A DNA stretch of 39,697 nt, from assembly GCA_021821465.1 (NCBI GenBank), contig JAKACM010000036.1, forward strand, positions 1-39,697, written 5' to 3'. A program made the position numbers and the translations under genes. The notes below the pieces were generated by a model, which had not been told where the DNA came from, did no database searches, and saw only the letters and a program-made list of their open reading frames with translations. Positions 8,049 through 25,095 of this stretch are shown piece by piece; position 1 is the first letter of the stretch, and every line of letters starts with the position of its first letter. The stretch comes from Bacillota bacterium (GTDB lineage: Bacteria > Bacillota > Sulfobacillia > Sulfobacillales > Sulfobacillaceae).

Positions 8049-9419
8049 TTATTCTGTGATCATCTGTTCCCACTGTCCTTTAATATCTTCTCTCAGTCCC
8101 GAGGAATTCACTGACATAGCCACCACCACGGTCCCTGCCGTCAAGTGGATCCAAGACCTTTGGGGCCACCGAGAACCCGTGGTTTGTGAGAGGAGTCCCC
8201 ACAACATTTTGACGTTGTGTATAGCATCAAACGGATCCGATGTACTAAGGGATACTTCCATCAAGGCGCGCGTCAGTTGGGTTGGATCGCCGCCGGACAA
8301 AAGAAATTGTTTGGCACTCGTCGCCGCATCCCGACCACTGGAGTCATGCATTGTGCGCTCAACAACCTGGTCCAGTTCAAAACGGCCGACAAGGGTGGGC
8401 TTCCAATTGTTAGCTATCCATGCAGCACGGTTTTCTTTTTGGCGCCTGGTTCTGGAACTGGACAGCCCAATCGCCCACCCCAGGTGACGAATGTATGAAG
8501 GCAAGTGCTGGTTTTCGAGCAGGTCCAGTACGCCATGTATGCCAGTCACCGCATGCGCATCAAACCCCGATGAATATAGCAGACTGGACGAGGCTAAAGC
8601 CATAGCCTCCTTCATGGTTTCCGCACTGGTATGCTGATGATACGAGTCGATAAGAATTTCAGATTCCTCTCCGAATTCGCACGCCATTAGTTCCGCTAAA
8701 AGAGCATCACAAACATGAATATCGATTGCGCCAGTGTATTCAGGACAGCTTTCCCCGGGCCATTTGCTCAGAACTTGATTCGCCATCCCAGCCTGAGGCC
8801 GGTTACCTAGGTATTGAATGGCAGCTCGATAAAAAGCTTCCGCATAACGCCACCCTTGACTATCGTCCAAAAGCTCAAAGGCCCGCTCAACAATTAACAA
8901 TCGATGTTCATTTTCTGGATATTGCCGCATTGCGGCCCATAGCATAAGCCACCGACCGCGTTGAAGGGACTGATTAGCCAACTGGGCAACACGATGCTCA
9001 GACAACAACGGCTTTTCGCCCGATTCCAAGTCAGGAATAAAGTGGGAAAGCGTTGTATCCGGATCCTCTGGGAGTGCAAAACGTTCCAACATAAGATAAG
9101 GACCGTAATTGGGATGTTTCAACAGATCCAAAACATAGGCCATCATGTGGAGCAAAGCCAGTACTCGATAACGAGGAGATAGAATGGAATTGGCTCGAAG
9201 AACCGGCCCGCCATTGAAGGTCCCGTGTCCGATAAACGGACCTGTATGGTTTACCCATCTTGCTGCTGCCAGAGCCAATAACAGATAAACATCTTGTTTC
9301 GCCAAGCCCTCCGCTTCCCATTGCAGCAGCACGCTATGCGCTTCGGATAACTGCATTTCTTCGATTTGTTCGAGTCTCTTCTCAGTGGCATCATCCCATG
9401 ACAACAATTTGTGCAACAA
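8049..9419 (-). CDS. Hypothetical helical protein
   Basis: A protein of about 456 residues that I cannot assign to a family. It has no signal peptide or clear membrane helix, and is rich in Leu, Ala and His with many predicted amphipathic helices, such as VYLLLALAAARWVNHTGPFI and the HMMAYVLDLLKHPNYGPY segment. The density of conserved-looking His, Trp and Tyr residues (WVNHTGPFIGHGTFNGGP) would suit a metal- or cofactor-binding helical bundle, but this is speculation. The frame opens at a GTG at 9428, which overlaps the strong AGGAGG site; the TTG at 9419 has correct 8-base spacing and is preferred. The PaaI-like thioesterase gene lies upstream on the same strand with about 130 bases between. 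Confidence 0.75.
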   Translation of the reverse strand: MLHKLLSWDDATEKRLEQIEEMQLSEAHSVLLQWEAEGLAKQDVYLLLALAAARWVNHTGPFIGHGTFNGGPVLRANSILSPRYRVLALLHMMAYVLDLLKHPNYGPYLMLERFALPEDPDTTLSHFIPDLESGEKPLLSEHRVAQLANQSLQRGRWLMLWAAMRQYPENEHRLLIVERAFELLDDSQGWRYAEAFYRAAIQYLGNRPQAGMANQVLSKWPGESCPEYTGAIDIHVCDALLAELMACEFGEESEILIDSYHQHTSAETMKEAMALASSSLLYSSGFDAHAVTGIHGVLDLLENQHLPSYIRHLGWAIGLSSSRTRRQKENRAAWIANNWKPTLVGRFELDQVVERTMHDSSGRDAATSAKQFLLSGGDPTQLTRALMEVSLSTSDPFDAIHNVKMLWGLLSQTTGSRWPQRSWIHLTAGTVVVAMSVNSSGLREDIKGQWEQMITE

Positions 9420-9479
9420 GTGCAACACCTCCTGTTTACACCCATTGTGTCACTTGAACTGTATTGGAGATATTGGCCA

Positions 9480-17208: not shown

Positions 17209-17265
17209 GAGAATTGCCCGTCCCCCATTCCAGGGAGTAGGTTGACTTGAGGAGGAGGTAAATAT

Positions 17266-17913
17266 ATGGACGATGCTCGTATCTGCATGCCGGGAATTGG
17301 CGATCCGGCACCAGAATTTGAGGCAAATTCTACTCACGGCACCATCAAACTCGATCAATTTCGAGGAAAGTGGGTCGTGCTATTTTCTCATCCGGCGGAT
17401 TTTACCCCGGTCTGAACCTCTGAATTCGTCGCATTTGCGCGGCGGGCTCCTCAGTTTGAGGAGCGAAACGTACAGCTCATTGGTTTGTCGGTAGACTCTG
17501 TATATTCACACCTTGCGTGGCAGGCAAATATTGAACAAAACTTCGGGGTTCAAATCCCGTTTCCCGTCATTGCCGATCTCGACCAAAAAGTCGCACGTCT
17601 TTATGGCATGGTTGCGCCAGGCGCATCCGCTACGACGACAGTCCGCACGGTCTTCTTTATCGACGATCAGGGGATAGTTCGCGCTTTGATCTACTATCCT
17701 CTCAACTTGGGTCGGAACATTGATGAAATCTTGCGCGTTGTCGACGGATTGCAAACCAGCGCCAAACAAGGTGTTGCGATACCGGCAGACTGGACCCCAG
17801 GCCAATCTGTCATTGTTCCTCCACCAACAACTACCAGCGCTATGCGACAGCGTCTGACCGAAAAGAGCGATGAACAAAAAGACTGGTATTACACTACGAA
17901 GAAGGCGAAATAG
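17266..17913 (+). CDS. Peroxiredoxin (1-Cys/Prx6 type) with in-frame TGA at the catalytic position; predicted selenoprotein
   Basis: Peroxide reductase with a thioredoxin fold, 215 residues when TGA at 17413-17415 is read as selenocysteine. The active-site loop reads [18 protein letters not shown]; Prx6-type enzymes have the peroxidatic cysteine at exactly this place, and residue 50 matches the archaeal Prx6 numbering. The rest of the family pattern is intact: [13 protein letters not shown], Arg127 in [31 protein letters not shown], and [15 protein letters not shown] near the end. No other stop or shift interrupts the frame, which argues against a pseudogene. The start ATG has GGAGGAGG seven bases upstream. 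C-terminal cysteines of the archaeal enzymes are absent; only Cys7 remains. A SECIS-like hairpin and a terminator follow. Ordinary gene calling would report only residues 74-215. The alternative is a single Cys-to-stop mutation. Confidence 0.85.
17446..17464 (+). promoter_or_regulatory. SECIS-like hairpin for selenocysteine insertion
   Basis: GCTCCTCA at 17446-17453 pairs perfectly with TGAGGAGC at 17457-17464. With the top A-U pair open, the apical loop is AGUUU (17453-17457), with G in the second position and 37 bases between it and the UGA codon. Bacterial SECIS elements are expected within the coding sequence, with a G in the first two loop positions about 16-37 bases after the UGA. The element meets these criteria at the upper limit of distance. 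Confidence 0.6.
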
Positions 17914-17914
17914 C

Positions 17915-17950
17915 ATGAGGGAAGGCCAGATCAGGCCTTCCCTCATTTAT
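17915..17950 (+). terminator. Intrinsic terminator after peroxiredoxin gene
   Basis: ATGAGGGAAGGCC (17915-17927) pairs perfectly with GGCCTTCCCTCAT (17934-17946) around AGATCA and is followed by TTTAT, starting two bases after the stop codon. The gene is therefore probably monocistronic. Confidence 0.8.
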
Positions 17951-23056: not shown

Positions 23057-23581
23057 TTGCCGTTTACGAAACCTGTAGACGAACGACATTTCACAGAATT
23101 CATGGAGGAATATGGTGACAAGGCATTGCGCTATGCTTTTGTCTCTTTGCATGTGCGTGATGACGCAGAAGATGTGACCCAGGAAGCCTTTGTGCGTTTA
23201 TGGCGTCATGCCTTGCGCCGCGGGATGGAGAACGTCAGTCCAGCTCTGTTATTTCATACCCTGACTAATTTGTGCCGAGACAAGATGCGTTATTATAAAC
23301 GTCATCCCGAAGACCCCACTGATATCTTGGAATCAACGCAGCCGTCTGCCCTTGATGAAATTCCCCTGCTAATGGATGACATGAATATATTGCAAGCCGT
23401 TATGCAATTGGGAGTCGCCGAACGTCAATGCATTTTGCTTTTCTATTACATGGACCGTTCATTAAAGGAAACGGCAGCGGCGTTGGGCGTCAGCGAACAG
23501 GTGGTAAAGACCCGGCTATACCGAGCACGACAGCATCTGCGCCCCCTTCTTGAACCCATTGTAAAGGAGGGTCTGCAATGA
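23057..23581 (+). CDS. ECF sigma factor (sigma-70 family)
   Basis: A 174-residue alternative sigma factor. Region 2 is at residues about 12-50 (FMEEYGDKALRYAFV, then DDAEDVTQEAFVRLWRH, the conserved helix that binds core polymerase and the -10), and region 4 at about 115-165 (GVAERQCILLFYYMDRSLKE then TAAALGVSEQVVKTRLYRAR). The only in-frame starts are TTG 23057, directly next to AGGGAG, and ATG 23102, which would cut region 2. I use 23057. The stop overlaps the next gene's start (ATGA, 23578-23581), so the two are translationally coupled and the second is its likely anti-sigma partner. Confidence 0.9.
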   Translation: MPFTKPVDERHFTEFMEEYGDKALRYAFVSLHVRDDAEDVTQEAFVRLWRHALRRGMENVSPALLFHTLTNLCRDKMRYYKRHPEDPTDILESTQPSALDEIPLLMDDMNILQAVMQLGVAERQCILLFYYMDRSLKETAAALGVSEQVVKTRLYRARQHLRPLLEPIVKEGLQ

Positions 23582-25095
23582 AAGAGCATCCGCCAGACAA
23601 TATCGAAGAGCGGTTGGACCGTGCGTTGGGGGAAGGCTTAGGTCTTTACTTTGATTCCACCAACTGGCATCCCAAAAAGATTGTCCGTCGGCAAAGCTAT
23701 ATCCGGCGGGCCGTCATTAGTGCTGCGGCTGCGTCAGTGGCGGGGTTTGTAATTTTACCTAATATTCATCCGATTAGCCACACGCAATTATCAAGTGGTG
23801 AACGTTCTCTTGCCGCGCCGAGTCTTTCCGGTTCGATTAAACAGGTCCTGCGGCAATTCTCCAACGACCAGGTGCAGGTTATCAACATGTCCCCCGTGTA
23901 CAATGAATATCCTATGGCGGTGCCAACTGGTCATGCCTTGACCCTTTCCGGAAAATTTACCTTGGGTCAGATCACAGGAACCTCACTTGTTCTCAAGCTG
24001 GACAACCAAAGGAAGGTATTGGGTGGAACATTATTTTCACAAGGAACTCCTATTTATGATTTTATCGGCCAAAGCGCAACCAATGGACAAGTGATCAGTC
24101 CTCATCCAAACCCCAACGCACTGAAAGGCAAATGGGTTCCCGGATTGCCCACGCCCATTACCTCTTTTGCCAACGCGGGCTCTTATATCTATTTGACACA
24201 TAATAACACTTGGACCGTACTTCATGGTCAAAAGAAAGCCTACTGGGCTAGTTCTCCCGGTCCTGCAACGCAAACGCAGAGGGCCCTTGACACGATTTCT
24301 GCTCTCCCGTCCAATCCTCAGGACGTTCTGTTAGTTGAAGAAAACCCTTCAGGGAACTCTAGCGGCTATGTCAGTACGAACCAAGGACAAAGCTGGAAAC
24401 CGTGGGGCATGGGATCCGTGTCGTTTAACAATGTCGTAGCGATGAATCATCATTACTGGGCCATTATCAACGGAACCTTGCAAACCAGCAAGACGGGAGT
24501 GAATTGGCACAACCTCCTGCCCATTAACACAGAACGCTGGCAAGTCGAAGACTTTTCCATTAATCCCGGTAACTCGCGTCAAGTAGCCGTGGCTTTGGTA
24601 CCCATTTCCGGAAACGGAATTGGACCTGTTCTGGAAACATCCAATGGGGGACAAAGTTGGCAGCAATTGCCACATTTCCCCGCTTTGGGGGCTTCCCCTT
24701 CGAGCATGGTTATGTCGCCATCCGGAGTTATCTCTGCCTTAGTTAATCTATCCAATCCCGTATTAGTGCGATATTCGCCAACAGCGCACCATTGGACCGC
24801 CTTTGCCGCTCCCAGCAACGGTCAGCAAGTTGGGGTGGGCCAACTGGCTTCGTCTCCTAATGGCAATTTACTGTATGGATCTCCTACCGGGACCATATAC
24901 CGCTGGGTCAAAGCTGATTCCAGCTGGCAGACCATTAATCCTCCGGCGAATACTAACAACGAGTCGTCTGCCCCATATCCCTTGGAAGCCATCGGTAATC
25001 ACCAAATTCTCGCAGGATATAGCCAGGGCTGGTCAATCTTTGTGATTCCGCAGCAAGGCGGATCTAAACCGTCATCCTCGACGAAATCCAACTAA
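23578..25095 (+). CDS. Membrane anti-sigma-like protein with Asp-box (BNR) repeat ectodomain
   Basis: A 505-residue protein with a short cytoplasmic N-terminus (about 40 residues), one membrane helix (AVISAAAASVAGFVILPNI, about 45-63) and a large outside domain. The ectodomain carries several Asp-box type turns, STNQGQSW, TSKTGVNW and TSNGGQSW, within about 330 residues of repeated strands, suggesting a beta-propeller like sialidase/photosystem stability factor folds. Position and ATGA overlap with the ECF sigma gene suggest that it holds the sigma factor at the membrane and senses something outside; there is no recognisable zinc anti-sigma motif (HxxxCxxC), so the mechanism would differ. A terminator follows. 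Confidence 0.8.
   Translation: MKEHPPDNIEERLDRALGEGLGLYFDSTNWHPKKIVRRQSYIRRAVISAAAASVAGFVILPNIHPISHTQLSSGERSLAAPSLSGSIKQVLRQFSNDQVQVINMSPVYNEYPMAVPTGHALTLSGKFTLGQITGTSLVLKLDNQRKVLGGTLFSQGTPIYDFIGQSATNGQVISPHPNPNALKGKWVPGLPTPITSFANAGSYIYLTHNNTWTVLHGQKKAYWASSPGPATQTQRALDTISALPSNPQDVLLVEENPSGNSSGYVSTNQGQSWKPWGMGSVSFNNVVAMNHHYWAIINGTLQTSKTGVNWHNLLPINTERWQVEDFSINPGNSRQVAVALVPISGNGIGPVLETSNGGQSWQQLPHFPALGASPSSMVMSPSGVISALVNLSNPVLVRYSPTAHHWTAFAAPSNGQQVGVGQLASSPNGNLLYGSPTGTIYRWVKADSSWQTINPPANTNNESSAPYPLEAIGNHQILAGYSQGWSIFVIPQQGGSKPSSSTKSN

Follow-up and report, generated by a model that had tools for sequence, protein, structure and literature searches.

Results

The gene and its flanking signals

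The window, that is, the whole stretch of 39,697 nucleotides that was analysed, encodes on its forward strand a Prx6-type peroxiredoxin of 215 residues (17266-17913, with the stop codon TAG at 17911-17913). The original prediction that the frame from ATG 17266 has a single interruption is borne out by the sequence, which contains neither a frameshift nor another stop. The interruption is the TGA at 17413-17415 (forward strand), codon 50, which aligns with the peroxidatic cysteine of Cys forms and with the same TGA in orthologues, and which we read as selenocysteine (Sec, U). The good ribosome-binding site that had been claimed is present: the Shine-Dalgarno sequence GAGGAGGAGG (17249-17258, forward strand), read directly in the sequence, places AGGAGG 7 nt upstream of the ATG. 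A similar sequence lies 5' of the chosen start in 13 of the 14 Sec forms compared, the starts having been picked partly by that sequence. The promoter claimed along with it was not recovered, as a consensus scan gave no match upstream of the gene at the scan threshold; its only match (17505-17532) lies within the gene, and shuffled sequences average 1.4 matches. A terminator-like hairpin of 13 pairs follows the gene at 17915-17946 (forward strand), and a similar inverted repeat is found 3' of the gene in five genus members.

Under table 11 with a minimum of 80 aa, the only ORF listed in this frame is one of 142 aa from TTG 17485, so the suggested loss of the N-terminal third in automatic annotation is plausible. 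Elsewhere in the window, the ORFs at 23578-25095 (forward strand, 505 aa) and 8049-9428 (reverse strand, 459 aa) have no Pfam match at 1e-5; the former is 82% identical in the Sulfobacillus benefaciens relative, where the neighbourhood is conserved.

Protein family and active site

Profile searches were run with the TGA of codon 50 translated as Cys. The protein matches Pfam AhpC-TSA (1.8e-38, 131.7 bits, cut-off 26) and the C-terminal domain 1-cysPrx_C (3.3e-12, 46.6 bits, cut-off 21.1), as well as NCBIfam PRK13189 (296 bits, cut-off 211), and its nearest solved structure by sequence is PDB 5ovq (E 2.8e-78). The active-site motif HPADFTPV-U (17389-17415, forward strand), conserved in all 14 Sec forms with U replacing Cys, has His 8 residues before U (His42) and Thr at -3, and the Arg of VRxxF follows at +77; the other family landmarks are thus intact, as predicted. 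A His specific to the Prx6 subfamily has been described (PMC12697902). The whole-length match, the 1-cysPrx_C domain, the HPxDFTPV motif and the subfamily His are shared with the Prx6/archaeal-type 1-Cys peroxiredoxins (PRK13189; PDB 5ovq, 2e2g, 1prx), from which the protein differs in having Sec for Cys and Ser for Thr at +2. On these sequence features the product of 17266-17913 is assigned to the Prx6 branch of peroxiredoxins.

No conserved resolving cysteine was found, in keeping with this assignment. The only Cys beside U50 is Cys7, and a Cys at this position is absent in 6 of the 14 Sec forms. The C-terminal Cys pair of relatives such as L109 is absent here, and Cys7 is a detail in which the sequence departs from the original account.

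Distribution of the TGA form

The spread of the TGA form was judged by the exact motif, slightly loosened for the class-level scan. The motif occurs in 14 of the 42 genomes of the order, in 15 gene copies distributed over five genera and two families. The class-level scan (154 genomes) recovered the same 14, the phylum-level scan (398 genomes) only the window's own genome, and neither gave a match outside the order. A contig scan with six short peptides of the protein reaches close relatives only; a homology search gave some match in 53 of 61 genomes. The nearest named relative by the peroxiredoxin gene is S. benefaciens AMDSBA1 (96% identity), so the window's genome is probably that of a Sulfobacillus as NCBI uses the name.

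Alignment to Prx6 homologues, proposed in the original prediction, comprised 45 distinct full-length Prx6-type proteins and showed either TGA (14) or TGC/TGT (31) at the site of codon 50. Eleven duplicates and three partial Cys rows (L124, L125, L104) were dropped before counting, and the second Sec copy of genome G027 (L213) was excluded from the 14. The 31 Cys forms are not the full number, those at G034:C33, G039:C7, G016:C3 and G038:C157, for example, not being included. Within the genus the Sec form is present in five of eight genomes and absent from G001, G004 and G007, the last being 61% complete; in G001 and G004 the TGA motif is missing and the Prx6 is a Cys form that has two additional C-terminal Cys, and G002 has both the Sec and the Cys form.

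The objection that re-sequencing might reveal TGC or TGT is countered by the presence of TGA in 14 separate assemblies, so a sequencing error of the window's assembly is not the explanation. Chance occurrence of TGA at codon 50 is excluded, because the codon is found at the same site in 15 copies from 14 genomes; one of these copies, at G027:C63, shifts frame later on.

Selection and decay

On the 3' side of the TGA, Ka/Ks was computable for 4 of 10 genus pairs (Ks 0.33-1.5), giving 0.009, 0.028, 0.015 and 0.025; the other six pairs have a saturated Ks, with Ka at 0.063-0.069. Ka on the 5' side is similarly low (0-0.065), and the low values on both sides therefore point to one protein under strong constraint. 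Further decay in the closest relatives, which would have spoken for a dead gene, was sought, and the orthologues instead prove to be under strong purifying selection 5' and 3' of the TGA alike. Decay does occur in two family members, which are not among the orthologues of the window's genus. In G027, the second Sec copy (L213, G027:C63:64000-65400) shifts frame near residue 82, and is either a pseudogene or an assembly error. The remnant L218 of G008 (G008:C102:4000-5600) is a decayed Prx6 in three different frames, the first 75 residues of which are unmatched in the retrieved stretch.

Selenocysteine machinery of the host genome

The predicted selA, selB, selD and tRNA-Sec (selC) were all found in the window's genome (4.96 Mb, 199 contigs), with selA at 552, selB at 361 and selD at 357 bits, all above the curated cut-offs, and the tRNA-Sec (anticodon tca, UCA) at 66 bits and called by ARAGORN. 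The ARAGORN call carries weight since Rfam's tRNA-Sec model also picks up ordinary tRNAs: all 14 control genomes gave some match, and five gave one above cut-off. The estimated contamination of the window's assembly is 5.1%. This is made less worrying by the near-complete genomes G002 (3 contigs) and G003 (2 contigs), in each of which the Sec gene and all four sel genes, above cut-off, lie on one contig.

Among the 14 genomes with the Sec form, selD is above cut-off in all and the complete set of four sel genes in 12; the exceptions are the drafts G006, without selB and selC, and G023, without selA above cut-off. The selC match above cut-off in G025 is only 76 nt long and may be an ordinary tRNA. 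None of the four sel genes is above cut-off in three genomes of the order, G010, G019 and G030 (63% complete), which have the Cys form and no TGA motif.

Three in-frame TGAs of the window's genome were looked at; two fall on the active-site Cys of a peroxiredoxin, codon 50 being one of them, and the third lies in selD. The selD gene carries TGA in its SGUGC site (L097, G000:C29:24500-26519, reverse strand); the same genome thus also appears to decode a member of a classical selenoprotein family. The second peroxiredoxin-like gene (L004/L175, G000:C118:61784-62230) has the motif FTPGU, with TGA likewise at the presumed peroxidatic Cys, and this TGA is present in all of the best 18 of 41 genomes. 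Its product of 149 residues is 28% identical to the protein described here, and is labelled AhpE/Bcp-like from the motif alone. In a class-level relative, the locus L210 (G044:C12:22800-24700) contains two adjacent genes for AhpC-type peroxiredoxins, each of which has TGA as its active-site codon (FTFVU).

Nucleotide-level constraint downstream of the UGA

The Sec forms fall into clade A (n = 8), which includes the window's gene, and clade B (n = 6). In clade A the six codons +13 to +18 after U (17452-17469, forward strand) have the highest synonymous-site conservation of the gene, and CAG TTT GAG GAG (codons +13 to +16, 17452-17463) is identical in 8/8 members; in clade B, GCC TTG GCA AGG CGA (codons +6 to +10) is identical in 6/6. 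The top six-codon scores, the highest of 201 positions in clade A and of 178 in clade B, are 0.88 at +13 and 1.00 at +5, respectively, against means of 0.43. Three Cys control sets reach 0.70 at +7, 0.63 at +11 and 0.70 at -27; as two of them peak near the same place, the elevation may partly belong to the region itself. The folding energy of the 42 nt from the TGA or Cys codon averages -12.1 kcal/mol in the 14 Sec and -6.9 kcal/mol in the 31 Cys forms. Relative to codon-shuffled versions of the same gene, z ranges from -1.07 to -3.45 for the eight genes of clade A (+27..+57) and from -1.83 to -3.29 for the six of clade B (+9..+39), and two of 12 Cys controls (L017 and L019, z -2.2 and -2.7) fold about as strongly as Sec forms at +9..+39.

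The frozen codons of clade B form an 8-bp hairpin, paired in 6/6 members, with a GGC loop 20 nt after the UGA. It is much like the hairpin of selD in the window's genome, which has a GGA loop 17 nt after the TGA; the selD-hairpin motif had no match in nine other selD loci, and this hairpin is described from the window's genome only. Of the 18 loci of the second Sec-peroxiredoxin, six have a comparable hairpin whose loop, GG or UGG, lies at 18-19 nt. The published bSECIS model, with G in the first two loop positions at 16-37 nt after the UGA for most elements (PMC13188914), fits all six members of clade B.

For clade A the picture is more tentative, and no GG-loop hairpin at about 17-20 nt of the selD kind is common to its eight sequences. 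The candidate SECIS hairpin GCUCCUCA-GUU-UGAGGAGC (hairpin 2; 17446-17464, forward strand) has its loop 38 nt after the UGA, or 37 nt with the closing A-U pair open. Allowing one G-U, it is fully paired in L001, L115 and L116, where it agrees with the bSECIS model if the loop is taken at 37 nt, and contains a mismatch in the other five of eight members. There is also a rival hairpin at about 17425-17446 (forward strand). Hairpin 1 of clade A formally fits the bSECIS model only in L007 and L008, at 16-17 nt. Covariation was sought in the eight sequences and not found: the only helices of at least five pairs in at least seven of them are 0-4/41-45, which is invariant, and 9-13/40-44, in which one side varies. 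The SECIS of clade A is accordingly a candidate only, which would differ from the GG-loop hairpins of selD and clade B.

Residues that go with Sec and its origin

Residue +2 after the active site (codon 52, 17419-17421) is Ser in 14/14 Sec and Thr in 31/31 Cys forms. Eight of the 14 Sec forms (L001, L114, L115, L007, L008, L116, L100 and L103) have an N-terminal Cys 42-43 residues ahead of U, which none of the 31 Cys forms has (Fisher p 1.4e-5, uncorrected for kinship). The phylogenetic tree, limited by a long-branch warning, needs two Sec/Cys changes, and a single Sec clade is not rejected (p-AU 0.227). Because Ser at +2 is common to all Sec forms, a single origin of Sec, with the RNA signal moving later, is favoured by the sequences, though not proved.

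Discussion

We consider it almost certain that the gene encodes a Prx6-type peroxiredoxin with peroxidatic Sec, inserted at the UGA 17413-17415 by the organism's own SelA, SelB, SelD and tRNA-Sec and directed by an RNA signal just downstream. The gene and its site, the machinery, the conservation, the purifying selection and the nucleotide-level constraint 3' of the UGA are computed directly. The sel genes, the TGA in 14 genomes and the purifying selection agree with the original reading of codon 50, and Sec as the residue that would be inserted there is very strongly supported.

Three other readings were weighed and rejected on the conservation, the Sec machinery and the low Ka before the TGA. 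A pseudogene, in which a nonsense mutation of the Cys codon is too recent for further decay, would need a single base change from TGC or TGT, and other members of the family do decay, as the G027:C63 copy and the G008 remnant illustrate. Yet a recent accident hardly accounts for a TGA found in 14 genomes of five genera and two families, with synonymous sites near saturation and a 3' Ka/Ks of 0.009-0.028 in the four genus pairs that allow it to be computed; moreover, decay in the Prx6 family looks otherwise, L218 of G008 being spread over three frames. We regard this reading as exceedingly improbable. The same low Ka, which is about as low in the 49 codons 5' of the TGA as in the 3' codons, bears on the possibility of two proteins, with termination at the UGA and re-initiation downstream, for example at TTG 17485, from where the 142-aa ORF is indeed open; its product would be without the active site, and we give this possibility next to no credence. 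Some ribosomes should still stop at the UGA, recoding efficiencies of 30-40% having been reported (PMC4513850).

A suppressor or a reassigned code might instead have the UGA read as Cys or Trp, and the residue itself is invisible to computation. This reading is very improbable given the complete Sec set with a UCA tRNA-Sec and the nature of the three TGAs looked at, two of them at a peroxiredoxin active-site Cys and the third in selD. In addition, the orthologues L117 and L118 apparently still end at a TGA, which argues against wholesale reassignment there.

Under the Sec reading, the protein would use Sec-SeOH chemistry, together with the conserved Thr, Arg and His, to reduce H2O2 or organic peroxides. 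As is general in the family, the selenolate of Sec would attack the peroxide, aided by conserved Thr and Arg, and the resulting selenenic acid would then need reduction. This step may fall to a small reductant, such as HS- or a thiol, or to the N-terminal Cys7. A proposal in the literature makes HS- a general reductant for Prx6 enzymes (PMC12697902), which, as a conjecture, would suit an oxidiser of sulfide minerals. Selenium resists over-oxidation (PMC8533274), and such resistance is the likely gain from Sec. The role of the enzyme would be peroxide defence in an acidic, metal-rich habitat.

A more far-reaching reading joins these elements: Sec arose in Prx6 within one order; the clade A SECIS differs in form and spacing (GUU loop, about 38 nt) from that of selD and clade B, so that SelB of a single lineage recognises two types of signal; and the N-terminal Cys resolves the oxidised Sec as a selenenyl-sulfide, making a Sec/Cys enzyme out of a 1-Cys one. 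We consider this combination, taken as a whole, unlikely.

Sec-peroxiredoxins as such are already known. Those with TxxU form an established bacterial family, with the Eubacterium acidaminophilum enzyme as a cited member (PMC13188914, PMC1794560, PMC9312934, PMC1088965), and one review places the family under COG1225 Bcp (PMC9312934). PrxU of E. acidaminophilum (NCBIfam NF040737) likewise has peroxidatic Sec in the TxxU of a PF00578 protein (PMC13188914); the gene described here scores 128.1 bits against this model, under its cut-off of 270, and both NCBIfam selenoprotein peroxiredoxin models that it touches, PrxU and Prx-SUH, stay below cut-off. The AhpC-type Sec forms that we compared differ in having mostly FTFVUATEF and are about 28-36% identical to our protein. 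In the passages covered, which name no subfamily and do not extend to the supplementary sequence lists, we found no report of Sec in the Prx6 branch; a Prx6 form could lie inside the published Sec 'Prx' family. For Sulfobacillus, a Sec formate dehydrogenase has already been reported (PMC4378227), and the passages covered hold no mention of a Sec Prx6. A Sec-containing PrxU is mentioned in S. thermotolerans, where the tabulated peroxiredoxin BXT84_15685 has 178 residues (PMC7409299). Since this is the open-frame length of an AhpC-type gene without TGA in the window's genome (G000:C73), we infer from the part of that paper covered that the mention reflects a database label and not the gene described here.

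The finding bears on annotation, as the standard code reveals only a 142-aa stub of the gene and the PrxU and Prx-SUH models stay under their cut-offs. The two Sec clades of one gene, with conserved RNA stretches placed differently, are useful for studying the origin and movement of SECIS elements. What reduces Prx6 enzymes, which have no resolving Cys, under physiological conditions is described as an open question (PMC12697902). A natural Sec Prx6, together with the Cys forms in sister genera and in G002, provides a ready pair for asking what Sec buys in this fold.
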